Assembly (NCBI GenBank): GCA_030765065.1
Contig: CM060990.1
Location: forward strand, 494,936,190 to 495,000,189
Direction of reading: 5' to 3'
Length of the DNA stretch: 64,000 bases
Source: Deroplatys truncata
Taxonomy: Eukaryota > Arthropoda > Insecta > Mantodea > Mantidae
Part shown: one piece after another, positions 15,076-58,256 of the stretch
Numbering within the stretch: the first letter of the stretch is position 1
Layout: every line of letters starts with the position of its first letter
Translations under genes and position numbers: made by a program
Notes under the pieces: generated by a model
What the model was told of the DNA's origin: nothing
The model's input: only the letters and a program-made list of their open reading frames with translations
The model's database searches: none

Positions 15076-15119
15076 AGGGTAGGGAAAAGGTGGCCCTATC
15101 ACGGGAAAAGCTAACGCAC

Positions 15120-20371: not shown

Positions 20372-20377
20372 AATAAA
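20372..20377 (+). promoter_or_regulatory. Probable polyadenylation signal of polB (AATAAA)
   Basis: AATAAA lies ~205 bp after the polB stop in a block conserved in all four arms. It is also present at 42614-42619 and, on the minus strand, at 29408-29413. In the left arm of element 1 it reads AATAAG. Position and conservation suggest the 3' end of the polB transcript. Confidence 0.45.
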
Positions 20378-20559
20378 GGTATGTTGACGCAAAGCTTTTC
20401 AATTTGTGAAACAATATGCAGTTTATCCCTCTCCGCATCGTACAATAACTGTTTAACATATAATAAGTTTGTAAGATTTAGAAAAAAGTATATAAATTGT
20501 TGTAAAGTTGGATGAGAAATGTTTATAATCTAATTACTGTCTATATTACCATGAGTACC

Positions 20560-21410: not shown

Positions 21411-21446
21411 CCTGTTAGTGTGAGTGCGTTAGCTTTTCCCGTGATA

Positions 21447-21958
21447 GGGTCACCTTTTCCGTACCCTTTTCCCTTTGTGGGTCACCTTTTTCCCTTTGCT
21501 GGTCACCTTTTTCCCCTTACTGGTCACCTTTTTCCCTTTGCTGGTCACATTTTTCCCTTTACTGGTCACCTTTTTCACTTTGCTGGTCACGTTTTTCCCT
21601 TTGCTGGTCACGTTTTTCCCTTTGCTGGTTACGTGTTTCCCTTTTCTGGTCACCTTTTTCCCTTTGCTGGTCACCTTTTTCCCCTTTGCTGGTCACATTT
21701 TTCCCTTTGTTGGTCACATTTTTCCCTTTACTGGTCACCTTTTTCCCTTTGCTGGTCACCTTTTTCCCTTTGCTGGTCACCTTTTACCCTTTGCTGGTCA
21801 CCTTTTTCCCTTTGCTGGTCACATTTTTCCCTTTGCTGGTCACCTTTTCCCGTTGCAGGTCACCTGTTTCCCTTTGCTGGTCACCTTTTTCCCTTTGCTG
21901 GTCACCTTTTACCCTTTGCTGGTCACATTTTTGCCTGAGCGAGTCACCTTTTCCCCTG
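21447..21958 (-). repeat. 21-bp minisatellite, right copy
   Basis: Mirror of 14548-15075 (TTTTTCCCTTTGCTGGTCAC units). Unit count and variant order differ slightly from the left array. Long frames of TFFPLLV or MTSKGKKV type are artefacts. Confidence 0.9.
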
Positions 21959-22019
21959 AATGGGTTACGTGATGGGCATGTCTAGAACATTGACATGAAA
22001 CATATTTTCATGAAGTTCT

Positions 22020-22770
22020 CGCTTAAAGTCGCTTTCAAGGTCTAGTATCTCCCTCCTATTCCATATCTCTCCTGTATATAAGTCCATATTCCTACTGCTA
22101 CACTACCTGTCTAGCCTACCGACTCTCCTCGTTTTCCTATACCTCTCATATAAACCATAATCTACTCTCAACCACTGTCTAGTCTAGCACCTCTCCCCGT
22201 ATCCCCTGCCTCTCATAAAGCGTATTCCCCCCTCCTGTCCCCTGTCTAGCTGAGTATCTCTCCTTGGTTTCCTAGCTAATCTATATAAAGCACATTCTAC
22301 CTTCAACACCTGTCTGTCCTAACATAGGAACTCTCTCCGTTTTCTCGTCTCTCCTTATAAACACATACTCAAACTCTCCTAGTCTAATACCTCTCCTCGT
22401 TTTCCTATATCTCTCATATAAACCATACACTACGTTTCAAGCCCTGTCTAGTCTAACACCTCTCCTCGTTTTCCTATACCACTCATATAAACCATACTCT
22501 ACTCAACCTCTGTCTAGCCTAACACCTCTCCTCCTGTTCCCTACCTCTCATACATATAAACGCCTTCTCTACTCTCAGCCTCTGTCTAGTCTAACATATC
22601 TCAACTATCTCTTCCATATAAACGCACTGCTCTCCTTCAACCCTGTCTAGCATAGTATCGGTCGTCGTATTCCCTATCTCTCCCATATAAACCCATTTTC
22701 CTCCTTGAACCGCCCCATCCAACCACGTTTGCCCTATCCTTTCCCATATATGCCCAAAAAAGTGGCCCAG
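22020..22770 (-). repeat. Subterminal array (right, element 1)
   Basis: Mirror of 13403-14460 but ~320 bp shorter, having fewer units. Confidence 0.8.
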
Positions 22771-22791
22771 CTCTCTTCTAAATAACCTACT

Positions 22792-22797
22792 TATGCC
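22792..22797. repeat. Right target-site duplication of element 1 (TATGCC)
   Basis: Immediately follows terminal CTACT; matches TATGAC at 13372 in 5 of 6 positions. Confidence 0.65.
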
Positions 22798-26709: not shown

Positions 26710-26715
26710 TACGTG
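26710..26715. repeat. Left target-site duplication of element 2 (TACGTG)
   Basis: Directly precedes AGTAG. It matches TAGGTG at 45477-45482 in 5 of 6 bases. Confidence 0.65.
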
Positions 26716-26739
26716 AGTAGTATACATAGGGACAGCGAG

Positions 26740-28450
26740 CACAGTTTTGCGTTTATATGGGAAAGGATAGGGAAAACGAGGGTAGATGCAACGGTTCAAG
26801 GAGGAAAATGAGGTTGTATGGGAGAAATTGGGACTACGAGGGTCGATACTAGGCTAGATAGGTGTCGAAAGAGTGGGGGATGTGCTTTATATGTAAACGT
26901 AGGGAATACGAGGGGAAGTGCTAGTCTAGACAAAGTTTGAGATGTGGGGTATGCGTTTATATGGGAAACAGGAAAAACATGTACAAATGGTATGCTAGAC
27001 AGATGCTGAAGGAGGGGGAATATGGGCTTATACGAGAGAGATAGGAAATACGAAGAGAGGTACTAGACTAGACAGGGCTTGAAGGATAGAATGTGGCTAT
27101 TATATGGGAGAGGTATTAGGCTAGAAGGGTTTGAATAGCAGAGCATGCGTTTATATGGAGAGGCGAGGAAAACGATGGGAGTAGCTAGGTTGGAGGAGCG
27201 TTCAAGGAGGGAAATGCGCTTTATATGAGAGAGGTGGAGAATACGAGAAGTGCTAGGCTAGACAGAGTTTGAGGTGTGGAGTATGCGTTTATATGGGAAA
27301 GATAAGGAAACGTGGACAGATAATAGGCTAGACTGAGTTTGAGGTGTGGAGTATGCGTTTATATGGGAAATGTAGGGAAACGTGGACAGATAATAGGCTA
27401 GACAAGGCTTGAAAGGTAGAATATGACTTTATATGAGAGAGATAGCAAACCGAGGAGAGGTATTAGGCTAGGTGGGTTTGAATGGTAGAGTATGCGTTTA
27501 TATGGGGAGACGAGGAAAATGATGGGAGTAGCTAGGTTGGAGGAGCGTTCAAGGAGGAAAATGCGTTTATATGGGAGAGATAGGGAAAACGAGGAGAGAT
27601 CCGAAGTAGAGCAGGGCTGAAGAAGGGGAACGCCCTTTATATGATAGACGTAGGGAATACGAGGAGAGGTAGTGGATTATACAAAGGTTGAGGAGTAAGT
27701 TATATGTTTGTGTGGGGCAGATATGGAAAACGGAGAGAGACCTATGCTAGGAGAGACTTGAAGGAGGGAAATTCGCTGTATATGAGAGAGGTAGGGAATA
27801 TCAGGAGAGGTGCTCGTCTTGACAGAGGTTGAGGAGTAAACTATGCGTTTATATTGGGCATATATGGGAAACGGGGACAGATGATAGGCTAGACAGATAC
27901 TGCAGGAGGGGAATGTAGGTTTATACAGGTGAGGTAGAAAACGAAGGACAGATGCTAGGCTAGCCAGACGTTGAAGGAGGGAGGGATACGCTTTATACGA
28001 AAGAGATAGGGGAAAGTTGGGGAGATGCTAGAATAGACAGTGGTAAAGGTAGAATGTGTTTTATGTGTGTGAGAGAGAGATAGCAAACCGAGGAGAGGTA
28101 TTAGGTTAGGAGGGTTTGAATGGTAGAGTATGCGTTTATATGGAGAGACGGGAAAAAGAAGAGAGATCCTATGCTAGGAGAGAGTTGAAGCAGAGGGAAA
28201 TGCGTTTATATTGGGGAAATAGGGAATACGTGGGTCGATGCTGGGCTATACAGAGGTCGAGTAGTAGAGTATGCGTTTATATGAAAATAGATAGGGAAAA
28301 CGTGGAGAGAGGATAGACAAGACGGATGCTGAAGGAGGGGAGTACGCTTTATAGTAGAGGTGGAGAATACGGGGAGCGTGTTAGGCTAGACAGAGGTTGA
28401 GGAGTATGCGTTTATATGAGAAATATAGGGACAACGAGGAGGGAGGCTGG
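26740..28450 (+). repeat. Subterminal array (left, element 2), ~1.7 kb
   Basis: About 25 degenerate ~60-70-bp units containing TGCGTTTATATGGGAGAGAT, AGGGAAAACGAGGAGAG, GCTAGGCTAGACAGAGGTTG and AGGAGGGAA. Homologous to 13403-14460. Units all point inward and are noncoding. Confidence 0.85.
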
Positions 28451-29089
28451 GGGGGCTAGTGTTGATGTATGTGTAATGTTCATCTATGCACAACATCATA
28501 AAACGTTATTGAAAAACACTCAGGGGTTTATACTGCTAACAAAGGCTATATTGCGTTCTAATGTCCCGGTATCACGCCTCTAAAGGGCTGGACGCAGGCC
28601 GTCGATCGATGAATACAATTATTCTAATTAAGTATTTTTTATTGTTACAGTGTAAAGAGTAATTCGGATAGTATCGCATATTTGTAGGTTAAACCCGTTA
28701 GTATCACAAGTGTTCATGGTAATTCAGAGCAGCAATTTGTACCAGTGCTATTTAACGTAATTTCGCATGATTCGGATTGTATCACAGGTACTTAAGTCAT
28801 TTTAACAGCTAATTCAGATACCGTCACAGGTATTCATGGTAATATAGAGAGTAATTAGATTATAAACATTTCTCATCCAACGGTACAACACTTTTATGTA
28901 TTTTTTTTCCAAATCTTACAAACTTTTTGTGTGTTAAACAGTTAGTGTGCGAAACGGAGAGGGATAAACTGCATATTGGTTTACAGTGAGGGTATATGGG
29001 AGTATTCCAAACTAATTCCACACCGAACGCTCTAACCTATCCCTACCTTGACTTCTCATTGTCTATTCAATCCTATCATCATCTAACCT
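28451..29089 (+). repeat. Spacer and short TAGTATCACAGG array (left, element 2)
   Basis: The unique block 28460-28640 (AACATTACACATACATC-type when read mirrored) is followed by a few AATTCGGATAGTATCRC units (28650-28850), GTAATTAGATTATAAACATT and the block GAGGGATAAACTGCATATTG shared with element 1. Mirrored at 43110-43740. Confidence 0.7.
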
Positions 29090-29320
29090 AATCAACGTAA
29101 CAAGACGTCACACTACGTAACATAAGCATGTAACCCCGTGACAAGACGTAAAACCACGTATCATAACCACGTGACAAGAGGTAACACCACGTTACATAAG
29201 CACGTAACAACTATGTAACCACTTATCATAACCACGTAACATGACGTAACACCCTGTGACATGACGTAACCAGAAACGTAACACGACATAACACCCGTAA
29301 TCTCCCTAACCAGATATAAC
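29090..29320 (+). repeat. GTAAC/ACGT-rich array (left, element 2)
   Basis: Short irregular units of ACGTAACACCACGTTACATA and AGCACGTAACAAGACG type, rich in the self-complementary GTTAC/GTAAC. Mirrored at 42730-43100 and absent from element 1, where the flanking blocks are directly joined. Confidence 0.8.
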
Positions 29321-29639
29321 CTCGAGTTTCTCTTAGTGAAATTGCAGCGTTTTATTCAGGTTTTATTATTTGAGAGTGTTAATTGAAAAGTTCTACATCG
29401 ACACACCTTTATTTTAGTTCGTTGTAGGCACTTCTCCCCTCTATATAGGCTTGAGACTCGCACTAGAATTGCTCGTAATGGCAGGGTTAACGCCTCCCCT
29501 TCCATCCTCTTGTTCTTCATTATTCATTAGGAGTCTGCTAGGTGTATACACATCACACGGACAAACTTCCATTTTTTAAATTGTAGACTCACGGAGGAAA
29601 TCTTCATCCTCGACTTACATTCTTTTATGCGCTGTTTGT

Positions 29640-32600
29640 AATGCTAAAATGCCCATATGCATATGGCGTTATTCGATCCTCGGTAATAACTCTTTTGTCA
29701 TCAAACGGAGTCAATGTAGTTTTATTGACTTGCACTGTGCTAACAGCATGCTCCCGTGACAGGATCAGATTCATGGGCATTCTGATGATTTCTTGGGTTT
29801 TAAGACAGTCTGTATATCGGCCAAATGTAATGTACTGCTTAATAGCACTACGTTTTATGCTTTAATTTGTTTATCATCGAGCCTTGAATATCTAAGGCTT
29901 AGATCTTAGGTCGTAGTCCAACAAAGCTTAGAATGATTTTGCTATTAGCCTCATTTTTAAATGTTCCCCAAGACCATTTTGTTCTGAGTAGAGTGACATA
30001 TATGGTTAACACGGTAAACAGCTGTATCCAGGTGTTCGAGAAAACGTAACTTGTCCTGGTACACATCTTCACTTGCCACACTATGAATGAATGAATCAGT
30101 GTTCATATACATAAGGTTCAGGTTTTCAGTCCCATAATATGGCAACAACACATCATAATGATAGTGATACATTAATGTTTTGGAGATGTTCAACACACTC
30201 ATACCAATGTATATAGGCTTGTTGCACACGATCCGCCGCGAGGCTATATGTACAGCAGCAAGGTTAGCAGCATATATCGTCCTATCGATAAACGTCGCTT
30301 AGCGATCAACTTTTCCATTGTCTTCTCATTTATAACCAGTCGGATATCCATACGATTACGCAGGTTCTCTATAGTTTTTCCAAACATGGCGTTGTTAAGG
30401 AGTTTGTACAGGCCCTTCTCAAAGTCATTTGCAGCCCGTTGTCGTAGCGTATAGTTAAATTTCACATAAGGTTTTAAATATCGAGACTGTCGGAATTGTA
30501 CCACACGATGGATTTTTGTTAGTCGTAGTCCATGATTAACAGCTTGCTTCAAAGCGATGTAATGTACAACATACTTCTTTCGAGGTCCAAAATGAGGTAT
30601 CATTTTCATTGTGGATGACTCCTTAGGCTTCATACACTCGGGGAGGAAAGGTAGATCGTTGTGTAGTTAGTGAAGTTCAGCGGGATACTCGATGTCGACT
30701 TCTAATATGTATCCATGAGGATCATCTTCTTGCAGTCTTTCTGAGTCGATTTTTTACAGGTGACACCCACTCAAATCCTCCATAATGGAGGGCGTGGCAC
30801 ATTGCCTAACCATATTGAATATTGGCGTCCTCATATGTAATAAACATATGGTCTCAACGGATCATGCTTATCTATATAGGCGTTGTTTGCTTCGGCATAC
30901 CGGTGGGAAACTTGGCATAAACTTCCTCTTATGCCGGATTCCACCATGAGTAATTGGTCATAATCCTGTAACAATTCCAGCTGAATTCCAGTATACAGCA
31001 ACATGGCGTCCCATGTAAGTCCTGGAGAGGTAAAATAATGAGCAGGATTGACTATGTGTATTTTAAGGGTTTGATCTGCAAATCTCTCAGAGACATAAGC
31101 TAGAAGAAGTACATCAGAGGTTAAGTAGTGGTCGTTGTATTTGCGCAGGTTTCTCATATTAAACAACTCCCATACATTTCTAGCATGATTATCCAAGCTT
31201 GTACTGAGGAACCGAAAGCTATCCACAAACCGAAGCTTTATATCTCCTTCATACTTGGACAATGATACATAGCTTTCTTCAGAGCTAGGAATTACTTCCA
31301 CCCGCTCTCTTGTGCATCTCAGCTCCTTAAAACTGAAGTGTGAGTCCCACCCACTGAGGCTGTTCATAAAGACTGGAATATATTTGGGTGTTTTGCAGGC
31401 TAAATTGCATTCATTATGTAGACTTCCACGATATTCACCACTGATATGATCATGGTTACGTACTTTGTAGTTCTGTTCAGTAAAGGTTTTTCAACACAAG
31501 TAGCGAACTGTAGAGGAGTTGAAATCCATCTGCTGCTGTTCTGTAAGTTTCAGAGGAATTGTAGATCTGTATATATTATTAGTTTCCTTTGCAAGGAACG
31601 ATAGGTATCCCATAAACTTCTGAGCAGCATCAACACCACGATATACATTGGGATGCTTAGGAAGACCAGTTTCCGTATGTTCAACCTCGGATGATGGTTT
31701 AACGTAAACGCAGAAACTCATGGGTACATGCTGCTGATAAGGGGTTGTATATGAAGTTTCAGGATTGGGTATGCATGTATGACATAGTGTAAGAATGCTT
31801 TCAAAGTCTGCGTAGACAACGTAAGGTAGCTTCAACATCTTTTCAAAATGTTTAAGTTATACAATTTGTTTCTCCTTGGTAGGCATAACTACCCTTGCAA
31901 CATCATGCTTATTACCGATGGCAGCATATTTTTGTAGATTTTTCAGTCCACTTCGTCCATATGGATCATCAAAATGTGTAAAACAACGCTTACAGGTATA
32001 AACACGTTCTGTATGCTTGGTTTTCTGTCGTCGAATAACCTTTTCAACATTCTTTATATAAACGTAGTGATGTTTTCCACTACTGTCACTCAATAGTAGT
32101 AGGTCCTGGTGTTCACTTAGTTCAGTCTCAGCGACCTTTATTGGATACACTTCATGCTTCTCATCCAGGCCGAAGACGTTAATAGACACCCTGTTAAGCT
32201 GCTCAAACTTAGATATTTGAGAAAGCGGATTGGGGTAGGAAACGCAGCTGAAGTCATATTTATTTTGAAGCTGTTCGTATTTGTTCAGGCGTTGTGCATT
32301 CTTCTCAACGAATTTGGCTAATACAGCATACATGAAGCATTACTCATCAGCATAATTCTGGATGTTAATGCAGGCTTCTTTAACTCCAACAGATGGTGGC
32401 AGGGGTAAGTAGCTACTTTCTCGTAACGGACTGTACTTGTTAATACGAAGACGAACCCCTTCCACAGCAAGCAGAGCCCAGTTGCTACCCTTAAGTTCTG
32501 ATTCCTCCATTTCAGTAACTAACTTTTTCGTTTCCAGCATATTGTCCAGATCCATTTCTGGGAAAGCAGTTTGATTCTGGGTTTTAAATGTTCTGTCGCC

Positions 32601-33060
32601 GGCTTCTCCGATACTGTTAACAAATTTACACCCAGCCAGCAGATTAATTTTTACACTCTTGTGAATCCCAAGATCTTTATGTCAGCCTGGATTATCCTTT
32701 GTTTTTCCTCATGCAGGTACATATTCATGTCCTTTGATGATTCACATCGTATAAAATACGATTTCAAGCGTCCATCGAATGATGTTTTATATTCTTTCAT
32801 GTCACAGTCATCTAGTGTAGAAACTAACTCTTGTTTGGTAGCTTCTAATCTACGCTTCTACTAAGGCAAGCTTATTTCACATGCATCTTCTTGTGGCCGA
32901 CACTTATAGTTGTCGTTAAAGGTTACATTACAATGTTTACATTTTAAGAGTTCTTACAACGTAGCTCACGCATTCTTTTACCATACCCAGGAAGAAATGT
33001 CATTCCACATTTACCACAAGAATATCCTCATGCACTAGGAATGATATGCTTATATGAGGA
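29640..33060 (-). pseudogene. polB, left-arm copy of element 2 (broken but nearly full length)
   Basis: On the minus strand from ~33060: an N-terminal Cys cluster (CGKCGMTF, CKHCNVTF), VTEMEESELKGSNWALLAVE, CFMYAVLAKFV, a finger VYTCKRCFTHF, ExoI YADFES, ExoII GWDSH (the Asp is kept here), ExoIII YLTSDVLLLAYV, motif B NAMFGKTIENLRNR and motif C degraded to YMNTDSF (first Asp replaced by Asn). A deletion of ~66 codons lies between LSTSLD and ARNVWELFN near 31194. The motif A region (~30780-30840) is damaged and several frameshifts occur. It cannot encode an active polymerase. Transcription would run from the centre toward the left end. Confidence 0.88.
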
Positions 33061-33226
33061 CTTGTTCGTCTTTACCTTGATGTAAAAACTTATTAATCCT
33101 TATTCAACGAAATTTAGACCTCTTCACGTTGATAACACTTTAGAAAGTCGATTATTTTCTAAGAGAACAGCGATGTTGACACCTCGGAGGTAATTAGCAG
33201 AATGAAGTCCAATGCCCGAGATCACG

Positions 33227-33236
33227 CTATTTATAG
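33227..33236 (-). promoter_or_regulatory. TATA box of polB (proximal copy, left arm)
   Basis: CTATAAATAG on the minus strand, with ATTGGACTTCATTCTGC downstream. It lies 181 bp from the distal copy and ~170 bp from the first recognisable polB codons. Confidence 0.55.
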
Positions 33237-33407
33237 AGGAGGCACGAGCCTTTCTTAGATCAATTATATAATTATTAATCCTTCTTAAGGAAATGTAGAC
33301 CTCTTCCCCTTGATAACACTTTAGAAAGCCGGTTATTTTCTTAGAGAACAACGATATTGACACCTCGGAGATAATTAGCAGAACGAAGTCCAATGTCCGT
33401 GATCGCC

Positions 33408-33417
33408 CTATTTATAG
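33408..33417 (-). promoter_or_regulatory. TATA box of polB (distal copy, left arm)
   Basis: Read on the minus strand: CTATAAATAG, followed ~29 bases on by TCGTTCTGC. A match to arthropod TATA-plus-initiator spacing. Confidence 0.5.
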
Positions 33418-33479
33418 AGGAGGCACGAACCTTTTTAGATCAACGATATACTGATTTTTAATACTAAAACAGTGATTAA

Positions 33480-33790
33480 GCGTCTAAGCTCTTGTATTTC
33501 AATACGTGATACACAGTGTTCGGGTGTAACCGCAGGTCTTCGAGCATGTTCAGGTATTTAAAGAAGCTGTCAGGGATGTTTATGTGTGATTCTATGTATT
33601 CGTAGGTCTTCATACAGCTTGGTGTGCTTGAACGAAGTTTTAGAATGTGTGAGTATGTACTAATGTGTTTGGGCGTCTCCGTACAGGTTCGGATGCTTAG
33701 AGTAAGTGTTTGCGAAGGTTCATGTATTGTTCGTAGGTCTTCGTGCAGATTTCGGTGCTTGTCTCATGAGGGTGATGAACGATCTGTCAA
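33480..33790 (+). repeat. GTAGGTCTTCG-type spacer repeats (left arm)
   Basis: Irregular units containing GTAGGTCTTCGTGCAG, TTCGGGTG/TTCGGTGCTT and ATGTGTGAG. Mirrored at 38600-39060 (ACGAAGACCTACGAACA). Noncoding. Confidence 0.65.
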
Positions 33791-33839
33791 CTGAGCAAGG
33801 GACAAGTATCCTTGAGCAAGCATTTACCATACGTCGCGA

Positions 33840-34380
33840 AACCAAGAACCACACGTGAAAGATGCAGTTGAAATAGAATGAAAGGGAAAGTAAACCGTGG
33901 TAGCATACACCAGTCCGACATTCGCCTGTAGACCAGCGAAAATAACAAAAAATCCGAGACCAGAGTGAGCGACCGACGGAAGTCGAACCTCGAACCCTAG
34001 AAGCACACGTGAAAGATGCAAATGAAATAGAATGAAAGGGAAAGGAAATCGTGGTAGCATACACGACTCCGACATTCGCCTGCAGACCAGCGAAACCCAC
34101 GAAAAATCCGAGGCCAGAGTGAGGGACTGGCGGGAATCGAACCCCGAACCCTAGAAGCACACGTGAAAGATGCAAATGAAATAGAATGAAAGGGAAAGGA
34201 AACCGTGGTAGACTGTCGACCAGCGAAAACCGCGAGAAACCTAAGGTCAGAGTGTCCGGCCCTACGACAATCGAACCCGGGACCTCCGAATGCGAACCAC
34301 AGACGTTATCGCCTGTACCAAGCCGTAAAACAGGTTTACCCCATACCACTTCCGGTAATGCTTTACGTGCATTAACTTTC
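33840..34380 (-). repeat. tRNA-like promoter repeats (left arm)
   Basis: On the minus strand a block with an A-box-like TGGTACAGGCGATAACG and B box GGTTCGATTGTCG is followed by two ~150-bp units ending GTTCGATTCCCGCCAG or GTTCGACTTCCG, each with TTTCACGTGTGCTTCTAGGG. They resemble tRNA-derived SINE bodies in tandem. The frames across them (33720-34382) are artefacts. Confidence 0.65.
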
Positions 34381-35930
34381 ACACTATGTCACACTCGGAG
34401 AGAGACTGAATGGTCACACTCCGAAATGTTTAAGCACACTTCATTACTACCTGCCACACCAAAAGAGAAATATTTTCACACGATGAGTCATACAGATGTC
34501 TCCATCCAATGCATACCAACGTAGCAGTCGCTACTACTGCCCATTAGATCAAAGTAAACACCATTTGTATCACCATAATACTTTAGAAATAGCGTAGAAG
34601 TTTTTCTCCCCTTATTTAAATAAATTCATGTATATACCCTATTATTTCATGTTTCCGATCCTTTTTCAATATTTTCTTTCCTTCTTTCCCTCTTCCCCTC
34701 ATTCTCCACAGAATCCTCACACAATATGACATTTTTATACGCTTAATACACATGTATTACAGAAAACAGCGCTTAATACGCAGTTATCACATAAAACCAC
34801 TACATTTGACCACAATCACGGGCATTTTTCCAGAGTTACTCCGATTTTAAGCTTGTAGAATCCTATTAGGAAATGATGTAATAAGTTTTGTTGTATTTTT
34901 AGCTCAAAGTGTCTACACACTTTAAAGTATCCGAGCCTTTTTATTTTCATTTAAAATAAAGAATGTCATATTTAATTTTAAGGCCACCTTTGTTAAAATA
35001 ATGTCTTGCAATCCATGGTTTACAGGTAGTTAAATACCCCCGTCTAAACCTGTATACATCTGTTCTACCAGGTATTATAGACAAACACACAACACCTTTT
35101 AAATTTATTTTAAAATCAAGTCAAGCGCGCGTTTAAGACCTATCGTGGCCGCCTTCGCGTGTTAAAAACCTAAAATAGCGATTTCAGTCTTGTTCCTCCC
35201 ATACAGGAAACAGTCAAACGAGTTGTAAAGCAAGCAGAAGGCAGTAACAGACCGGGAAGGGACAGGAGTGGGAAGGTAGGATCGTGTGTGGAGCGGGGGA
35301 GAGAGTACCTCAACGACAGACCTGCTTGCAGATTCGAAATACATCATTCCGCGGGAGCCCGTCACCTAGGGCGGAGTTATACATCATGCGTCCAAAAATG
35401 CCGATTTACAATGCGTTAGCGTCTTGTGTAAAGCCGTATTTTAGGCACGCATTTTTAATTCAACTAAGAGATGTAGTGTTCTTATCTGAGATATTAGAAT
35501 TTTACAAATTAAGGATCGGTGTCAGGACGGCAGTTACCAAAGTATACATTACAAAGAAATTAGCTTATGACATATGTGTAATGACGTATCGACGCCAGGA
35601 CGACAGGTAGCTAAATATACATTACAAAGAAACTAGTTTATGATATAAATGTAGTAGTGTTTATTCGACGTCTTTATCTTAATTAATTTTTATCGGAAGA
35701 GGAATTCAAGTCACTAGATTCAACCCAGGACCTCCAGGTCAGCTTGGAACAATACGTCAATGATGCGCCGCATTCCAAGGATATAATCACCATTTACTGT
35801 ATATCCTTATCTGTTTTATTTCAGGAGACATAAGCATTTAACGGTAATAATAATTGGTTCTTTTGTGACAGACCGCCAATTAAAAAGGTCTGTGATCAAT
35901 TTAATTAACTCACAGTAGTATAAAAAGGCC
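34381..35930. other. Inner noncoding arm (left)
   Basis: AT-rich sequence mirrored at 36445-38010. A GC-richer core at 35160-35400 (CAACGACAGACCT, AAATACATCATTCCGCGGG) is the best conserved part between arms. No coding motif is recognised; the short frames over the core differ in length between arms. Confidence 0.6.
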
Positions 35931-36444
35931 GATACGGGAACAATAGGGGAATGTTCTAATCAGGACAATAGGCTTAATGACCCTTTGTTCTACGCCGCCG
36001 ACCACGCCCCCTCATTTTTGTCGCCTGTAATGGGTGTGTCATATAGCTGTCAGATTTGATTGACAAGGGTTTGACAAGGGTCGTCCATGTGTAACGCTTT
36101 GTTCTACGCCGCTGACAACGCCCCCTCATTTGTGATCTTGTCTGAACACCGCCCGGTAAAGAGGTGGACAGTGAGTTATTGTCCTCGTAGGAGGACATGG
36201 TTCATTGTTCTCATTGATAATGGCGGCGTTCGGAGTAGGCCAAGAAGGTTAAGTGTTTTCACATCTCTCCTTTCTTTACTATTTGTCAACGCCCGCCTGT
36301 GACCCTGTACAAACCCCTTTGTCATTGTACGAGGACAATGGTCCATTTTCCCATCGTTAATGGCGGTGACAGAATTGCACACAAAGCAGAGGTGTGAAAC
36401 CACTAGCCCTCTATTTACACTATCAATATGCGGTCTTTGTCGAA
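35931..36444. other. Non-palindromic centre of element 2
   Basis: About 515 bp where mirror symmetry ends. It holds a direct repeat (CTTTGTTCTACGCCG at 35983 and 36096, ~114 bp apart, each followed by CGCCCCCTCATTT), a 6-bp stem around 4 bases (GTCCTC/GAGGAC, 36181-36196) and ATTGTCCTCGTA opposed by its complement at 36327-36338. The two outward polB genes diverge from this point. Confidence 0.65.
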
Positions 36445-38010
36445 CTATACCGGCCTTTTATTAATATTGTGAGTTAATTAAATCGATCACAGATCTTTTT
36501 AATTGACGGTCTGTCATAAAAAGAAACTATTATTACCGTTAAATGCTTGTATTTCCTAAATGAAAACAGATAACGCTATGCGGTTAAAGCTGATAATATC
36601 CTTGGAATGCGGCGCGTCATTGACGTATCGTTCCAAATTGACCTGGCGGTCCTGGGTTGAATCCAGTGACGAATTCCTCTTCCGATATTAAAAGTAATTA
36701 AGATAAAGATATCGAATAAACACTATTACATTTATATCATTAACTAGTAGCTTTGTAACTTATGTTTAGGTACCTGTCATTCTGGAGTCGATACGTCATT
36801 ACATTTATATAATAAACTAGTTTCTTGGTAATGCATATTTGGGTAGCTGTGGTCCTGACACCGATCCTTAATTTGTAAAACTCAAATATCTCAGATAAGA
36901 ATATTACATCTCTTAGTTAAATTAAAAATCTGTGACTAAAAGGCGGAGTTAGCGTAAATAGCTAACACAAAAAATACGCAAGACACTAACGCATTTTAAA
37001 TCGGCTTTTTTGGACGTGTAACTTATAGCTCAGCCCTACGTGGCGGTCTCCCGCGGAATGATGTATTTCGAATCTAGAAGGAGGTCTGTCGTTGAGGTAC
37101 CCCCCTACCCCACACTCGCTCCTACCTCCACAATACTGTCCTTTCCCCGGTCTATCACTGCCTTCCGCTTGCTTCACAACTCGTTTGGCTGTTTCGTGTC
37201 TGAAAGGAACAAGGCGGAAGTCGCCATTTTAGGTTTTTAACACGCGAAGGCGGCCATGATAGGTCTTAAACATGTGCTTGACTGGATTTTAGAAGAAATT
37301 TAAAAGGTGTTGTGTGTTTGTCTATAATACCTTATGGAAGCGATGTATACAGAATTAGACGGGATATTTGGCTACCTTTAAACCATGAATTGCAAGACAT
37401 TATGTTTTACAAAGGCGGCCTTAAAAAGGACATGTGACAATCTTTAGATTAAATGCAAACAGCAGGGGATCAGAGACTTTAAAATGCCTAGACTTTTTGA
37501 GTTAAAAATGCAATAAATTAATTAATGTATTATTTTCTAATAGAATTCTGCAAGCTTGAAATCGGAATAACTCTAGAAAAATTACTTTGCTCGTCATTGT
37601 GGTCAAATGTAGTGATTTTATGTGATAACTGCGTATTAAGCGCAGCTTTGTGTAATAAATGGATATTAAGCGTATAAAAATGTAATATTGCCTAGTGATT
37701 CTGTACAGAATGGGAGAAAAAGGGAAAGGAAGTATTAAAAAAGGATTGGAAACATGAAATAATAGGGTATATAAATGAATTTAATTAAATACGGGGAGAA
37801 AAACTTCTACGCTATTTCTAACGTACTAAGGAAATACAAATGGCGTTTACTTTAGTCTAATGGGTGGTAGTAGCGACTGCGACGGTGGTAGGCATTAAAT
37901 GGGGACATCTGTATGAATGATCGTGAGAAAATACTTTTTTGTTGTGACAGGTACTAATGAAGTGTGCTTAAACATGTCGGAGTGTTGCTAGACAGTATGT
38001 CTCCGAGTGT
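36445..38010. other. Inner noncoding arm (right)
   Basis: Mirror partner of 34381-35930, including the conserved core at 37010-37240. No gene recognised. Confidence 0.6.
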
Positions 38011-38019
38011 GACGTCATA

Positions 38020-38590
38020 TGGTGAAAGTTAATGCACGTAAAACATTACCGGGAGTGGTATGGGGTAAATCTGTTTTACGGCCTGGTTCAGGCGATAACG
38101 TCTGTGGTTTGCATTCGGAGATCCGGGGTTCGATTCCCGTAGGACCGGTCACTCACACCTTAGGTTTCTCGAGGTTTTCGCTGGTCGACAGCCGACATGC
38201 TAGTAGTTTCTCATCTACCACGGTTTCCTTTCCCTTTCATTCTATTTCATTTGCATCTTTCACGTGTGCTTCTAGGATTCGGGGTTCGATTCCCGTCTGT
38301 CGCTCACTCTGGCCTCGTATGTTTCGTGGGTTTCGCTGGTCTGCAGGCGAATGTGGAAGTCGTTTATGATACCACGGTTTCTTTTCCCTTTCACTCTATT
38401 TAATTTGCATCTTTCACGTGTGCTTCTAGAATTCGGGGTTCGATTCCCGTCGGTCGCTCACTCTGGCCACGGATTTTTCGTGGTTTTCGCTGGTCTGCAG
38501 ACGAATGTCGGACTGGTGTATGATACCACGATTTCCTTTCCCTTTCATTCTATTTAATTCGCATCTTTCACGTGTGCTTCTAGATTTCGC
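38020..38590 (+). repeat. tRNA-like promoter repeats (right arm)
   Basis: GGTTCAGGCGATAACG (A-box-like) and GGGGTTCGATTCCCGTAGG (B box) at 38085-38155 form a tRNA-like block. Two ~150-bp units follow, each with TTTCACGTGTGCTTCTAG and GGGGTTCGATTCCCGTCKGT. These B boxes match the pol III consensus well. Folding as a true tRNA is not convincing. Confidence 0.65.
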
Positions 38591-38599
38591 GACGTATTG

Positions 38600-39060
38600 T
38601 GAATGCTTGCTCAAGAATACTTGTTCCTTGCTCGGTTGAGGGATCGTTCATCACCCTCACGAGCCAAGCACCCGAATCTTCACGAAGACCTACGAACAAT
38701 ACATGAACCTTCGGAAACACTTAACCTAAGCATCCGAACACACGAACACATTGATACATGCGCACACATTCTAAAACTTCGTTCAAGCACAGGAAGCTGT
38801 ACGAAGACCTACGAACACGTACAATCACACAAACATCTCTGAAAGCCTCTCTAAATGCTGGAACATGCACTAAGAGCTATGGAGACATAGATACACGCGT
38901 TCAGTTCCTCCAAGCACCCGAAGCTATACAAAGACCTACGAATACGTACAGTCACACTTAAACATCAATGAATGCTTCTCTAGATAACTGAACATGCGCG
39001 AAGACCTACGGATACACCTGAACATCTGACTAACACGTATTGAAATGTAAGAGCTTAGAC
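38600..39060 (-). repeat. ACGAAGACCTACGAACA-type spacer repeats (right arm)
   Basis: Mirror of 33480-33790, somewhat longer, with several diverged units. Noncoding. Confidence 0.6.
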
Positions 39061-39124
39061 GCTTAATCACTGTTTTAGTATTAAAATTCAGTATATCATT
39101 CACCTAATAATGTTTGCGCCTCCT

Positions 39125-39134
39125 CTATAAATAG
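39125..39134 (+). promoter_or_regulatory. TATA box of polB (distal copy, right arm)
   Basis: CTATAAATAG with CATTGGAGCTCATTCTGC starting about 22 bases downstream; TCATT falls at 39156, 29 bases from the TATA start, a normal TATA-initiator distance. Confidence 0.55.
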
Positions 39135-39307
39135 GACGATCACGGACATTGGAGCTCATTCTGCTAATTATCCTCGAGGCGTCAATATCGTTGTTCTCTC
39201 AGAAAATAATCGACTTTTTAAAGCGTTATCAAGGTGAAGAGGTCTACATTTCCTTGAAGAAGGATCAATACAATATATAATTGATCTAGAACGTTTCGTG
39301 CCTCCTG

Positions 39308-39316
39308 TATAAATAG
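39308..39316 (+). promoter_or_regulatory. TATA box of polB (proximal copy, right arm)
   Basis: TATAAATAG, 182 bp after the distal copy, followed by GAGCATTGGACTTCATTCTGC-type sequence. The initiator-like TCATT is conserved in all the promoter copies except one. Confidence 0.55.
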
Positions 39317-39449
39317 GGTGATGTCGAGCATTGGACTTCATTCTGCTAATTATCTCCGAGGTGTCGACATCGTTGTTCTCTCAGAAAATAATAGGTTTTC
39401 TAAACGTGAAGAGGTATACATTTCCTTGAAGACGGATTAATACGTTATT

Positions 39450-42404
39450 ACATCAAAGGAAAGATGAATAAGTCCTCATATAAGGATATCATTCCTAGTG
39501 CATCAGGATATTCTTGTGGTAAATTTTGAATGACATTTCTACGTGAGTATGATAAAAGAAGGCATGAGTTACGTCGTAAACAGCTCTTAAAATGTAAACA
39601 TAGTAATGTAACCTTTAAAGACAGCTATAAGATTCGGCAACACGAAGATGCATATGAAATAAGCATGCCTGAGTAGAAACGTAATTTAGAAGAGTTATTA
39701 TCTACAATGGATGACTGTGACATGATAGAATATGAAACATCATTCCATGGACGCTTGAAATCGTATTTTATACGATGTGAATCAACTAAGGACCTGAATA
39801 TGTACCTGCATGAGGCAAAACAGCGGATAATCCAGGTTGTACAAAAAGATCTTGGTATTCACAAGAGAGTGAAAATTAATCTGCTGGCTGGGTGTAGATT
39901 TGTTAATAGTATCGCAGAAACCGGCGACAAAACATTTAAAACCCGGAATCAAGCTGTTTTTCTAGAAACGAATCTGGACTTTATGCTTAAAACGAAAATG
40001 AACAAGTTGTTTACTGAAATGGAGGACTCACAGCTTAAGGCTAGCAACTGGACTCTGCTTGCTGTGGAAGGCGGTTGCCTTCATAATAACAAGTACAATC
40101 CGTTACGAGAAAGTAGCTACTTACCCCTGCCACCATCTGTTGGAGCTAAAGAAGCCTGCATTAACATCCAGAATTATACTGATGAGCGATGCTTCATGTA
40201 TGCTGTGTTAGCCAAATTCGTTGGGAAGAATGCACAACGCCTGAACAAATACGAACAGCTTCAAAATAAACATGACTTCAGCTGCGTTTCCTACCCCAAT
40301 CCGCTTTCTCAAACATCTAAGTTTGAGCAGCTTAACAGGGTGTCTATTAACGTCTTCGGCCTGGATGAGAAGCATGAAGTTTATCAAATAAGACTCGCTG
40401 AGATTGAACTAACTTAACTAGGAGAAATATTAATTTTATGTATATGTGTTACTAGATTAGCTTCAAATGAATTGTTCTTCCATTCAAACAAAGTATTTTT
40501 TAGTCATTTTTGTTATAGTAGGAGTTGCTTTTTTACCTTATTAGAACGAAACGTTTTAGGCTATATTCACATTCGTAAAGGCGGGACTACCTACTGTTGA
40601 GTGACAGTAGTGGAAAGTACCACTACGTTTATATAAGGAATTTTGACACTCATTCGACGACAGAAAACTAAGCATAAAGAACGTGCTTATACCTGTAAGC
40701 GTTGTTTTACACATTTTATTGATCGATTTGGACGATGTGGAGTGGAAAACCTACAATAAAATACTGCCATCTGTATTAACATGATATTGCAAGCATAGTT
40801 ATGCCTACCAAGGAGAAATCAATTGTACAATTTAAAAATTTTGAAACGATGTTGAAACTACCTTACGTCAGCTACGCACTATTTGAAAGCATTCTCGCAC
40901 TATGTCATTCTTGTATACCCAATCCTGAAACTTCGTATACAACCCCTTATCAGCAGCATGTACCCATGAGTTTCTGCGTTTACGTTAAACCATCATTCGA
41001 ATTTGAACATCTAGAACCTGGTCTTCCTAAGCATCCCTATGTATATCGTGGTGTTGATGCTGCTCAGAAGTTTATGGAATACCTATCGTTACATGCAAAG
41101 GAAAATAATAATATATGCAGATCTACCATGCTTCTGAAACACCCACAACAACAGCAGATGGATTTCAACGCCTTTAAAGTGTGCTGCTTTTGTTGAAAAA
41201 CCTTTACTGAACAGAACTACAAAGTACGTGACAATGATCACATCAGTGATGAATATCGTGGAAGTCTACATAGTGAATGTAATTTAGCCTGCAAACACCT
41301 AAATATATTCCAGTCTTCAAGCACAACCTCAGTGGGTAGGACTCACACTTCAGATTTAAGGAACTGGAATGCACAAGTGAGCGGGTGGAAGTAATTCCTA
41401 GCTCTGAAGAAAGCTATATATCATTGTCCAAGTATGTAGGAGATATAAAGCTTCGGTTTGTGGATAGCTTTCGGTTCCTCAGTACAAGCTTGGATAAGCT
41501 GGTGAAATATCTAACATCGTACCCGGAAACACTGAAACACATCGGAGAAGGGAAGTTGAAGTTGAGGACTCGTAAAGGAGTATATCCCTATGATTACGTC
41601 ACGTCACGGGATGTTTTGAACGAAACCTGTCTGCCTCCTAAAGACTCCTTCTACAATAGACTAAATGAAGAAGAAATTAGTGATGCTGACTTCAATCATA
41701 CTAGAAATGTATGGGAGCTGTTTAATATGAGAAACCTTCGCGAATACAGTGACCTCTACTTAACCTCTGATGTACTTTTTCTAGCTTATGTGTTTGACAG
41801 ATTTAGAGATCAAATCCTTAAAATAGCCGATTCTGCTCATCATTTTACCTCTCCTGGACTTACATGGGACGCCATGTTGCTGTATACTGAAATTCAGCTG
41901 GAATGGTTACAGGATTTTGACAAATTACTCATGGTGGAATCCGGCATAGAAGGAAGTTTATGCCAAATTTCCCATCGGTATGCCGAAGCAAACAGCGCCT
42001 AAATAGAAAAGCATGATCCGTCGAGACCGACCAATTTATTACATGTGGACGCCAGTAACCAATATGGTTAGGCAACGCGCCTCAACCTCCGTTATGGAGG
42101 ATTTGAGTGGGTGTCACCTGAAAAAATCGACATAGAAAGACTGCAAGAAGATGATCCTCATGGATACATATTAGAAGTCGACATCGAGTATCCTGCTGAA
42201 CTTCACGATCTACACAGCGATTTACCTTTCCTGCCCGAGTGTATGAAACCTAAGGAGTCATCTACAAAGAAACTGATACCCCATCTTGGACCTCGAAAAA
42301 GTATGTAGTACATTGCATGGCTTTGAAGCAAGCTGTTAATCATGGACTACGACTAACATATAACGACATATGCATACGCGCATTACACCATTTTAAGCAG
42401 CGCA
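39450..42404 (+). pseudogene. polB, right-arm copy of element 2 (internally deleted)
   Basis: It starts with the Cys-cluster region (SGYSCGKF, the second Cys lost; CKHSNVTF), then 39707-40417 (MDDCDMIEYETSFHGRLKSYF, FTEMEDSQLKASN, FMYAVLAKFVGKN). An unrelated ~180-bp insertion lies at ~40412-40598. Next come RAYTCKRCFTHF, ExoI altered to YALFES, CCFC followed by a damaged DHIS..EYRGSLHSEC module, and 41385-42002 with ExoIII YLTSDVLFLAYV. Motif A is damaged near 42050 (DASNQYG) and FEWVSPEKID follows at 42100. After GLRLT at ~42356 about 850 bp are missing, removing motifs B and C; the terminal YAYAHYTILSSA and stop remain. Not functional. Transcribed toward the right end. Confidence 0.88.
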
Positions 42405-42729
42405 TAAGAGAATGTAAGTCGAAAAAGTAGATTTTCTCCGTGAGTCCAAAATTTAAAAAATGGACGTTTGTCGATGTGATGTGTATACACCTAGCAGACA
42501 CCTGATGAATAAAGAAGAATAAGAAGATGGAAGGGGAGGCGTTAACTCTGCCATTAGGAGCAAGCTTAGTGCTAGTCTCAAGCCTAGATACAGGGGAGAC
42601 TTCAACGAACTCAAATAAAGGTATGTTGTAAAACTTTTCATTTAAGACTCTCAAATAATAAAACCTGAATAAAACGCCGCAATTTCACTAAAATAAACTC
42701 GAGCTTATCTCTGGTTAGGGAGATTATTG

Positions 42730-43100
42730 GTATTACGTCTTGTTAGGTTGCTGGTTACGTTGTGTCACAGGGTGTTATGTCATGTTACGTGCTTATGATA
42801 CGTGGTTACATAGTTGTTACGTGCTTATGTTACGTGGTGTTACGTGTAGTCACGTGGTTACGCGCTTATGTTACGTAGTGTGACGTCTTGTCACGTAGTT
42901 ATGTTACGTGGTGTTAGTCTTGTTACGTGGTCATGATACGTAGTGTTACGTCTTGTCACGTGGTTATGTGGTTATGTTACATCTTGTCAATTGGTTACGT
43001 GCTTAAGTTACGTTGGTTACGTCTTGCCTCGTGGTTATGATACGTGGTGTTACGTCTTGTCAAGTGGTTACGTGCTTATGTTACGTAGTGTGAAGTCTTG
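42730..43100 (-). repeat. GTAAC/ACGT-rich array (right, element 2)
   Basis: Mirror of 29090-29320, longer (~370 bp), with TTACGTGGTGTTACGTCTTG-type units. Confidence 0.8.
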
Positions 43101-43109
43101 TTACGTTGG

Positions 43110-43740
43110 TTAGTGTAGATGATGATAGGATTGAATAGACAATGAGAAGTCAAGGTAGGGATAGGCTAGACCGTTCGGTGTGGGGTTAGTTGAGAATACT
43201 TTTATACACCCTCACTGTAAACCAATATGCAGTTTATCCCTCTCCGTCTCGCATACTAACTGTTTAACATATAAAAATTTTGTAAGATTTAGAAAAAAAA
43301 GTATATAAAATTGTGACGTTGGATGAGAAATGTTTATAATCTAATTACTATCTATATTACCATGAATACCTGTGACCCTATCTGAATTAGCTGTTAAAAT
43401 GACTTAAATACTTGTGATACAATCTGAATCATGCAAAATTACCCTAAATATCTCTGGTAGGATCGCTGCTCTGAATTACCTTGAACACTTGTGACATTAA
43501 CCGGTTTACCCAACATATATACGATACTATCCGAATTACTCTCTATACTGTAACAATAAAAAATACTTAATTGGAATAATTGCATTCATCGATTGACGAC
43601 CTGCATCCAGCCCTTTAGAGGCATTGTACCGGGACGTTAGAACGCAATATAGCCTTTGTTAGCAGTATAATCCCCTGACTTTTCTCAATAACGTTTTATG
43701 ATGTTGTGCATAGATGAACATTACACATACATCAACACGT
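43110..43740 (-). repeat. Spacer and short array (right, element 2)
   Basis: Mirror of 28451-29089: TAGTATCAC-type units read on the minus strand, then the block with CCAGCCCTTTAGAGGC. Confidence 0.7.
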
Positions 43741-43744
43741 GCCC

Positions 43745-45460
43745 CCCTAGCCTCTCTCCTCGTTGTCCCTATATTTCCCATATAAACGCATACTCCTCAA
43801 CCTTTGTCTAGCCTAGAACGTCTCCCCGTATTCTCCACCTCTACTATAAAGCGTACTTCCCTCCTTCAGCATCTGTCTTGTCTATCATCTCTCCACGTTT
43901 TCCCTATCTATTCTCATATAAACGCATACTCTACTACTCGACCTCTGTCTAGCCCAGCATCGACCCACGTATTCCCTATCTCCCCAATATAAACGCATTT
44001 CTCTCTCCTTCAACTCCCTCCTTGCATAGGATGTCCCTTCGTTTTCCCGTCTCTCCATATAAACGCATACTCTACAATTAAAACCCTCCGAACCTAATAC
44101 CTCTACTCGGTTTGCTATCTCTCTCACATAAAACATATTCTACCTTTAACACTGTCTATCCTAGCATCTCTCCAGTTTCCCCTACCTCTTTCGTATAAAG
44201 TGTATCCCTCTCTCCCTCCTTCAGCATCTGTGTAGCTAGCATCTCTGCTTGGTTTCCTACCTCACCTGTATAAACCTACATTCCCCTCCTTCAGCATCTG
44301 TCTAGCCTATCATCTCTCCCGGTTTCCCATATTTTCCCCATATAAACGCATACCGTACTCCTCAACCTGTCTAGACGAGAACCTCTCCTCGTATTCCCTA
44401 TCTCTCTCATATAAAGCGTATTGTCCTTCAACTGTCTCCTAGCTTAGGATCTCTGTCCGTTTTCCATATCTGCCCCACATAAACGTATACCCTACTCCTC
44501 AAACTCTGTATAACACACTACCTCTCCTCGTATTCACTACCTCTACCATATAAAGGGTGTTCCCCTCCTTCAGCCCTGCTCTACCTCGGATCTCTCCTCG
44601 TTTTCCCTATCTCTCCCATATAAACGCATTTTCCTCCTTGGACGCTCCTCCAACCTAGCTACTCCCATCGTTTTCCTCTTCTCCTCATATAAACGCATCC
44701 TCTACCATTCAATCCCTCTTAGCTTAATACCTCTCCTCGGTTTGCTATCTCTCCCATATAAGGTCATATTTTACCCTTCAAGCCCTGTCTAGCCTATTAT
44801 CTGTCCACGTTTCCCTAAATTTCCCATATAAACCCATACTCTACATCTCAAACTCTGTCTAACCTATTATCTGTCCACGTTTCCCTATCTTTCCTATATA
44901 AACGCATACTCCACACCTCAAACTCTGTCTAGCTTAGAACTTCTCCTCATATTCTCCACCTCTCTCATATAAAGCGCATTTCCCTCCTTGAACGCTCCTC
45001 CAACCTAGCTGCTCCCATCGTTTTCCTCGCCTCTCCATATAAACGCATACTCTGGCATTCAAACCCTCCTAGCCTAATACCTCTCCCATATAAACACCAT
45101 ATTCTACCCTTCAAGCCCTGTCTAGTCTAGTACCTCTCCTTGTGTTCCCTATCTCTCCCGTATAAGCCTATATTCGCCCGCCTTCAGCATTTATCTAGCA
45201 TACCATCTGTCCACGTGTTTCCTATCTTCCCATATAAACGCATACTCCACATCTCAAACTTTGTCTAGCCTAGCACTTCCCCTCGTATTCCCTGCCTTCA
45301 CATATAAAGCACATCCCCACTCTTTCAACCCCTGTCTAGCCTAGCATCGACCCTCGTAGTCCCTCTCTCTCCCATATAAACGCATTTTCCTCCTTGAACC
45401 GTCGCATCTACCCTCGTTTTCCCTATCCTTTCCCATATAAATGCAAAAATGTGCTCGCTG
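43745..45460 (-). repeat. Subterminal array (right, element 2), ~1.7 kb
   Basis: Mirror of 26740-28450, of similar length and unit order. Confidence 0.85.
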
Positions 45461-45476
45461 CCCATTATATGCTACT

Positions 45477-45482
45477 TAGGTG
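45477..45482. repeat. Right target-site duplication of element 2 (TAGGTG)
   Basis: Follows terminal CTACT; 5 of 6 bases match TACGTG at 26710. Confidence 0.65.
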
Positions 45483-58216: not shown

Positions 58217-58256
58217 AGTTAATAAACGCTACTCCACTAAAACAAAAAAATACAGG

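Follow-up and report, generated by a model that had tools for sequence, protein, structure and literature searches.

Two palindromic Polinton-like elements in the genome of the mantis Deroplatys truncata

INTRODUCTION

A 64,000-nt stretch of the Deroplatys truncata genome (contig CM060990.1 of GCA_030765065.1, positions 494,936,190 to 495,000,189; hereafter the window) holds an 18.8-kb mirror-image element, E1, at 26716-45476, in which two inverted arms flank a 0.5-kb centre. The locus raises the question of how an element with the marks of a Polinton comes to be a palindrome. Intact vertebrate Mavericks are described as averaging 16.9 kb, with terminal inverted repeats of 46-1447 bp and a core set of eight genes, or seven in one species; in most of them the two gene modules are directed inward, and the commonest end motif is (AGT)2 (PMC8097293).

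RESULTS

E1 consists of two inverted arms around a short centre

A first-pass annotation had described E1 as a palindrome with its parts in mirrored order. In a BLASTN self-comparison the inverted matches start with 26716 paired to 45476 and run inward until 35934 pairs with 36448, which bore out the palindrome and showed the outer coordinates to be right to the base. The terminal array, GTAAC-type array, polB, 181-bp duplication and 154-bp repeats all recur in reverse. In place of the short inverted repeats around unique, gene-rich sequence that are typical of Polintons, E1 has arms of 9.2 and 9.0 kb. Global alignment of 26716-35952 with 36428-45476 gave 907 differences at 8297 aligned sites (10.9%) and 58 indel events, 7 of them of at least 20 bp. 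The features of E1 are:

26710-26715, no strand: left 6-bp flanking repeat TACGTG, 5/6 match to 45477-45482
26716-35934, plus: left arm, inverted match to 36448-45476
26716-28445, plus: left terminal array, ~70-bp units, 23 anchor motifs
29095-29253 and 42784-43112: GTAAC-type arrays, in reverse order in the two arms
29381-32681, minus: left polB, broken; from frames between stops, Pfam and E2 homology, N-terminal limit approximate
33090-33450, no strand: tandem duplication of 181 bp, located upstream of the left polB; mirror copy at 39092-39442
33837-34211, no strand: 154-bp tandem repeats, SINE-like, with a minus-strand box-B-like motif, mirrored at 38216-38589
34384-35934, no strand: inner arm, higher arm-to-arm divergence by change-point test, mirrored at ~36448-38020
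35935-36447, no strand: single-copy centre (loop) between the arms, with a 35-bp internal direct repeat
36448-45476, minus: right arm, inverted match to the left arm
39677-42643, plus: right polB, broken; from frames, PF03175 and E2 homology
43740-45476, minus: right terminal array, with 23 anchor motifs and the same unit register as on the left
45477-45482, no strand: right 6-bp flanking repeat TAGGTG, partner of 26710-26715

The 23 anchor motifs of the left terminal array compare with a mean of 1.6 and a maximum of 6 in 200 shuffles. The 154-bp repeats had been called tRNA-like, which found only weak support: the inner arms hold box-B-like motifs (one left, three right), but no box A match lay upstream. 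ARAGORN (bacterial setting) and Rfam both found nothing, and tRNA genes in the inner arms were rejected.

A second, asymmetric palindrome lies in the same window

E2 (13378-22791, 9.4 kb), overlooked in the first pass, is also palindromic, with arms of 3.6 and 3.3 kb placed asymmetrically around a 2.5-kb single-copy middle. The palindromic form therefore recurs at another locus, an outcome named beforehand as supporting; single-armed structure with gene-rich sequence opposite polB, named as refuting, was not seen in E2, two copies being visible in all. The features of E2 and its family are:

3422-3538, plus: solo terminus of the E1/E2 family, no interior found in the window
13372-13377, no strand: left 6-bp flanking repeat TATGAC, 5/6 match to 22792-22797
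13378-16997, plus: left arm, inverted match to the right arm
16476-19286, minus: polB frame of 937 residues, N-terminal part missing or shifted
16998-19495, no strand: single-copy middle forming the loop, of which ~19420-19495 is of unknown origin
19496-22791, minus: right arm, with a 3' piece of polB in inverted form (plus-strand frame 19430-20164)
22792-22797, no strand: right 6-bp flanking repeat TATGCC, partner of 13372-13377

The solo terminus had likewise been overlooked. Elsewhere in the window, an RT frame at 62342-63673 gave 41 matches, and other frames are retroelement and transposon fragments.

AGTAG starts all five family termini (5/5); the sixth base fits (AGT)2 in 2/5 and is another base in 3/5. 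At the offset expected for the 6-bp duplication reported for E1 lies an imperfect repeat (TACGTG/TAGGTG, 5/6). E2 likewise has 5/6, and neither element has a perfect duplication. At 12 other offsets tried, the match was at most 4/6; when 100000 pairs of 6-mers were drawn at random from the window, 0.59% reached 5/6.

The recognisable gene is a Polinton/adintovirus-type polymerase

As annotated, each E1 arm carries one outward-reading polB, though both are interrupted. The polB of E1 and E2 is of Polinton/adintovirus type (Pfam PF03175, 2.2e-25). For the predicted structure of E2 polB, modelled without the N-terminal primer domain that is absent from E2, the seven best PDB fold matches were phi29 polymerase, and adintovirus PolB ranked first among viral models; sequence identity to the Ladona adintovirus PolB is 46%. 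Judged by this predicted fold, the polymerase is of the protein-primed B type, and polymerase type and ends agree with the Polinton-like identity first proposed.

PDB sequences gave no match to the E2 protein or to profile A1, and no locus was confirmed when a viral collection was scanned with the E2 protein and with P0057 and P0061. The 28-sequence alignment A1 found 2/42 stretches, L001 (39%) and L002 (36%), both distant and gene-rich. Endonuclease VII was the sole match in phage records (2/50,697 records), and likewise in PHROGs. Arthropod sequence data are rich in PolB genes of the E2 type (4073 matches in 7980 scored candidates), and among the 120 matches listed, those with a named species come from insects or a spider.

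Consistent with the reported lack of many Polinton genes, Pfam at E 0.1 recognised no second gene in 10 frames of the E1 inner arms and centre. A retroviral-type integrase had no match in these 10 inner-arm and centre frames at E 0.1, in a scan that can miss shorter pieces. Capsid, protease and packaging ATPase gave none in the same frames at the same threshold, Pfam being a weak capsid test, as the capsid frame of L001 likewise has no Pfam match. No P-type transposase, the mark of Foldback/Galileo elements, was matched in the E1 and E2 frames scanned with Pfam.

Changes common to both E1 arms relative to E2 fall at codon positions 1/2/3 in counts of 59/40/139, whereas those between the E1 arms are flat (59/65/59). 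These counts show that polB was under purifying selection between E1 and E2 before the copies died, and that its decay since has been unconstrained.

Arms have been copied from one another within each element

At 51 of the 52 informative four-arm sites the arms group by element; none groups left with left, and one is crossed. Array units are in register at 19/21 within E1 and at 8/11 within E2, the remaining 3 repeating a stretch of array, while register between E1 and E2 is lost beyond the outermost units. Since the arms are far more alike within an element than between E1 and E2, despite purifying selection on polB between the two, they have been copied from one another.

Divergence between the E1 arms steps up inward, from 9.9% outside to 15.4% in the inner arms (change-point test), and two in-frame polB stops are common to both arms. 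It follows that E1 was recopied when already palindromic and with polB already broken; because both arms have these stops, the polB of E1 itself no longer functioned when the arms were last copied. The inner arms predate the outer ones, and E1 went through at least two steps, which argues against a single-step origin. The present arms are therefore not the product of one dimerisation by the element's own intact polB. Arms identical at formation are consistent with the outer arms (flat codon positions in E1; 12/905 sites in E2), while the E1 inner arms have diverged further. The step may instead mark a nested element, though inspection of the arm alignment by eye showed no boundary.

DISCUSSION

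With moderate confidence, we favour the explanation that E1 and E2 are snap-back genomes of a reduced Polinton/adintovirus-type protein-primed replicon that an integrase acting in trans inserted as single units. The parent would be a linear replicon reduced to its end sequences and one protein-primed DNA polymerase gene. Strand-displacement replication would start from a protein-primed end; the polymerase would then leave its template and turn back, copying either its own strand or the displaced one as far as the starting end. Each side of the product would then show the same end, the same array and a polB, with near symmetry in E1 (0.5-kb loop) and asymmetry in E2 (2.5-kb loop). As it would have an origin at each end, PolB could replicate such an extrachromosomal palindromic or hairpin form, and a Polinton-type integrase from elsewhere could insert it as one unit. 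While palindromic, one arm could be recopied from the other, keeping the arms of one element alike; in E1 this happened at least once after polB had broken, either during a replication round driven by a helper or through chromosomal conversion.

Both elements have the corresponding geometry: the same end on both sides, an inverted stem, a single-copy loop and differing breakpoints. The head-to-head dimer of a hairpin-ended ~9-kb unit suggested in the first pass captures the palindromic form, but the asymmetric E2, with other breakpoints, fits snap-back template switching better than a fixed-centre dimer. Several points count against the snap-back explanation: the flanking repeats are imperfect in both elements; polB reads outward, whereas Maverick modules point to the centre; the E2 junction has ~75 bp of unknown origin without plain microhomology; and two integrated copies were seen, with no parent element, integrase or extrachromosomal form.

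The main rival is host gene conversion. In Foldback-type elements, conversion or recombination involving the two ends is proposed to extend the inverted repeats inward, and E1 and E2 could be long-TIR transposons with ordinary ends whose repeats grew in this way until polB lay inside, making snap-back unneeded; we regard this as possible but doubtful. A conversion tract after insertion would directly explain the two common stops and the divergence step in E1, and the step predicts 1.9 common stops where 2 were seen, an agreement resting on two events. Galileo, as described, has similarly very long, internally repetitive inverted repeats (PMC3573991). Galileo has a P-type transposase, unlike E1 and E2 with their polB and Polinton-like ends. 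Against conversion, in both elements the arms were near-identical along their length at the onset of decay and the palindrome limits differ, so that conversion must have run from the very ends past polB twice. Because polB is present once per E1 arm, a one-gene ancestor must also first have gained an inverted second copy, for which conversion alone is insufficient.

Descent of E1 and E2 from a single ancestral palindrome, with arms evolving side by side, would account for their common form, termini and polB, yet it predicts that left arms group with left, found at 0/52 sites against 51/52 by element, and array registers agree only within elements. These comparisons contradict its plain form, and it would hold only with repeated arm-to-arm copying; we consider it very improbable. 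It is still harder to credit that the palindrome was made during assembly, or that a single-armed copy was duplicated in inverted orientation once it had been inserted. Genome amplification is known to make artificial palindromes (PMC6218980), but an assembly duplicate is rejected because the E1 arms differ at 907/8297 sites, besides their indels. Duplication after insertion is disfavoured, as the element ends on either side in a family terminus, as the two flanks differ and carry the 5/6 repeat, and as the pattern is repeated in E2.

A further-reaching possibility, to which we give little credence, is a self-maintaining Polinton lineage lacking capsid and integrase, whose normal replicating form would be a hairpin-ended linear molecule or head-to-head palindrome, with arm copied from arm in each round. 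Such a two-part replicon (end array plus polymerase with built-in primer) would be a nuclear analogue of hairpin linear plasmids that borrows its integrase. The selection on polB and the palindromic state of E1 before its last recopying fit this possibility; at least that copy, its polB being dead, needed a helper.

The snap-back explanation combines traits of several known systems. E1 and E2 resemble Polintons/Mavericks in their AGTAG ends, 5/6 flanking 6-bp repeats and predicted protein-primed type B polymerase, but differ from vertebrate Mavericks in the mirrored 9-kb arms of E1 and in a doubled, outward polB with no other gene recognised in the frames scanned. The closest viral structure match to E2 polB lies among adintoviruses (Drosophila-associated adintovirus 3 and the Ladona dragonfly adintovirus). 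Adintovirus 1, from the same study, is described as 14.5 kb long and predicted to encode twelve proteins, among them homologues of capsid, protease and integrase (PMC8363768), unlike E1 and E2, where polB alone was recognised in the frames scanned. PolB of bidnaviruses, of the same protein-primed group, is also among the structure matches, and a polinton polB gene is described as having passed to insect parvoviruses (PMC11071308); bidnaviruses, however, are single-stranded capsid viruses, and no capsid gene was recognised in the E1 and E2 frames scanned. The stem-and-loop geometry with differing breakpoints is that described for AAV snap-back genomes, which are symmetric or asymmetric, self-complementary, with one end and a truncated middle, and whose dimers are head to head (PMC8235507). 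AAV is nevertheless a hairpin-primed parvovirus without its own polymerase, whereas the E1/E2 polymerase is predicted to be protein-primed and its product sits integrated in the genome. Hairpin-ended or head-to-head palindromic derivatives also arise from protein-primed linear plasmids (Kluyveromyces pGKL1, Streptomyces) and, in symmetric form, as defective adenovirus genomes; these are plasmids or viral by-products, whereas E1 and E2 are chromosomal insertions.

In the literature, judged mostly from titles and the starts of abstracts, we found no palindromic, long-TIR, head-to-head, snap-back or inverted-duplication Polinton, and an earlier report may exist. Because arthropod data abound in such PolB genes, the snap-back idea can be tested at once through mirror-image copies elsewhere. 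To our knowledge, Polinton replication has not been directly observed. Protein-primed strand-displacement replication leaves snap-back products as its footprint, and palindromic genomic copies would therefore be a fossil record of Polinton replication, and would also record the origin of small, helper-dependent derivatives.

Two palindromic elements of one family

Self-BLASTN of the window and the frames within it upheld the first-pass annotation's claim that 26716-45476 is a palindromic element (E1) with an outward-directed polB, the Polinton/adintovirus-type DNA polymerase gene, in each arm; both copies are interrupted. A second palindromic element (E2, 13378-22791), asymmetric and with E1's anatomy in shortened form, is found 3.9 kb left of E1.

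26716-35934, E1 left arm, inverted match to the right arm
36448-45476, E1 right arm, inverted match to the left arm
34384-35934 and ~36448-38020, more divergent E1 inner arms, ~1.6 kb
13378-16997, E2 left arm
19496-22791, E2 right arm
16476-19286, minus strand, E2 polB frame, 937 residues

In a global alignment of 26716-35952 with 36428-45476, which reaches ~20 bp further in than the arm limits, the E1 arms differed at 907 of 8297 aligned sites (10.9%) and by 58 indel events, seven of them at least 20 bp long. E1 terminates in AGTAG at left and right, flanked by TACGTG (left) and TAGGTG (right). The 9-mer of the left terminus, AGTAGTATA (26716), has a single further plus-strand copy in the window, at 35914, on the inner margin of the left arm and directed into the centre; this copy may be chance or the trace of an older end. 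In the arm alignment, both inner arms carry, after the 154-bp repeats, a second SINE-like stretch (34200-34320 and its mirror), which we take to resemble tRNA-derived SINEs.

The middle of E2 is 2.5 kb of single-copy sequence, and an inverted polB 3' fragment lies on the plus strand. Substitution identity between its arms was 95.3-99.8% in nine 400-bp windows inside the arms (array indels set aside), with differences at 12 of 905 gap-free columns in the polB 3' block; the flanks, TATGAC and TATGCC, agree at five of six positions. A third terminus (3422-3538) stands alone, with none of its interior in the window. All five termini in the window start with AGTAG, and no polB was found there outside E1 and E2. 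At the E2 junction, ~75 bp (19420-19495) are without a match elsewhere in the window. The E2 arms also contain a 21-bp tandem array (14543-15080 and 21463-21957), unlike the GTAAC-type array at the roughly equivalent place in E1, so that arrays between the ends and polB appear to turn over quickly. Reverse transcriptase, RNase H or DUF4817 fragments were seen at 385-3212, 4463-5326, 5873-6367, 51297-51677, 58212-58610 and 61557-63673, several of them scoring under the curated cut-off; by its retroelement-type fragments, the window is a repeat-rich eukaryotic region.

The polB frame of E2 belongs to a protein-primed polymerase

The E2 frame matched PF03175 in Pfam (2.2e-25) and reached 23.5 bits against PF02945, just under the 23.6 cut-off; among six other pieces, one E1 piece scored above the PF03175 cut-off, one under it, and four had no match. 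A database search with the polB protein returned 4073 matches among 7980 candidates scored and, among the 120 matches listed, identity was ~52-56% for long matches and 66-72% for the closest partial ones. For an AlphaFold2 model of the E2 protein (mean pLDDT 85.3), the top seven PDB fold matches were all phi29 DNA polymerase (TM-score of the best match 0.41 when normalised to query length and 0.65 to target length), and the top viral match was PolB of Drosophila-associated adintovirus 3. Together, the Pfam, database and fold matches place the protein among the protein-primed polymerases of Polinton/adintovirus type. One gene model from Chrysoperla carnea (P0001, 1605 residues) holds parts of a PolB of this type two to three times in the same direction, and probably spans repeated PolB copies. 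Polinton polymerases are predicted to carry the terminal-protein primer as a fused part of the enzyme (PMC11071308), so that an end and polB together would plausibly suffice as a minimal replicon.

The arms of each element stem from one template

Two blocks are present in all four arms. Their informative sites grouped the arms by element at 51 sites, left with left at none and crossed at one; the uninformative columns comprised 117 gapped, 66 with single-arm changes and nine with at least three states. In the terminal arrays of ~70-bp units, the collinear right-arm unit was the best match for 19 of 21 units of the E1 left arm. The same held for 8 of 11 units of the E2 left arm (one weakly), the other three repeating a stretch of the array, and between E1 and E2 the register is gone beyond the outermost units. 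Changes common to the E1 arms relative to E2 numbered 59/40/139 at codon positions 1/2/3, a skew that reads as a sign of purifying selection on polB in a replicating lineage, and differences between the E1 arms were flat (59/65/59). Site grouping, array register and codon-position counts thus show copying between the arms of an element: each pair goes back to a common template that is younger than the E1/E2 split.

E1 appears to have a two-step history

A change-point test divided the E1 arms at ~34384, with 9.9% divergence outside and 15.4% inside; the log-likelihood gain of 18.3 was reached by none of 200 shuffles (maximum 7.9). A higher local mutation rate is a possible source of the inner excess. 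In E2's frame, the E1 arms have three common stops among 706 codons, one of them at the frame start, where E2 itself is shifted; the two that are left compare with 1.9 predicted by the divergence step alone, an agreement that amounts to two events. The left arm has three private stops and the right arm eight, of which four fall where the alignment is poor, and an alternative alignment (616 codons) gave three common, four left and three right. The one small indel common to both arms adjoins E2's own frameshift. Of 65 residues invariant in a 28-sequence PolB alignment, 25 were kept by both arms, 19 were gapped, five were lost in the left alone and 11 in the right alone, and three were changed alike and two differently in both. 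E1's two polB copies are broken in different ways. In 29960-30298 and 40780-41193, the left copy has asparagine for the first aspartate of what we take to be the polymerase YxDTD motif, and the right copy leucine in the presumed exonuclease DFE motif. The divergence step and the two common stops suggest that polB was broken and the palindrome in place before the outer arms of E1 were last homogenised; either helper-driven replication or chromosomal conversion would account for that event.

Snap-back copying as the proposed source of the palindromes

The phi29 enzyme and other protein-primed polymerases are described as replicating by strand displacement, with single strands exposed (PMC4974454). 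A polymerase that switched template to its own nascent or displaced strand would copy back to its end of origin, giving a product whose stem runs from that end to the return point and whose loop is the sequence beyond. Both elements have the form expected of such a product, E1 with a stem of 9.2 kb and a loop of 0.5 kb, E2 with a stem of 3.3-3.6 kb and a loop of 2.5 kb, and symmetric and asymmetric snap-back genomes are reported in AAV populations (PMC8235507). As to the parent, polB in one distant gene-rich viral stretch (L002) points outward at most 0.3 kb from the contig end, so that a snap-back starting at an end of this type would retain both the terminus and polB. In another (L001), polB is separated from the contig end by an integrase frame (PF00665) and one more frame, and most intact vertebrate Mavericks have both of their gene modules directed to the centre (PMC8097293). 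Weighed together, these layouts leave parent elements with an outward terminal polB a mere possibility. In the E1 inner arms and centre, none of 10 frames matched Pfam at E 0.1.

We consider snap-back copying of a protein-primed linear replicon, with the arms recopied later, the best reading and somewhat probable. Gene conversion between the arms in the host, the main rival, seems to us rather unlikely. The palindrome had also been put down to replication of a hairpin-ended linear unit: a linear-replicon product is retained in modified form, and the fixed 9-kb hairpin unit stays hypothetical. The breakpoints of E2, which differ from those of E1, and the two steps in the history of E1 speak rather for snap-back with later arm recopying. 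Linear plasmids in hairpin or palindromic form are precedents, as are symmetric adenovirus genomes.

Intact vertebrate Mavericks are described as averaging 16.9 kb in length, with terminal inverted repeats of 46-1447 bp and 6-bp duplications; they carry eight core genes, or seven in one species, and their end motifs are AGT or AG repeats, apart from a third type in one eel (PMC8097293). E1 and E2 have this end motif and polymerase in common with them, fit the 6-bp duplication imperfectly and, within the frames scanned, lack the remaining features. We file both elements as Polinton-derived, snap-back, polB-only derivatives.
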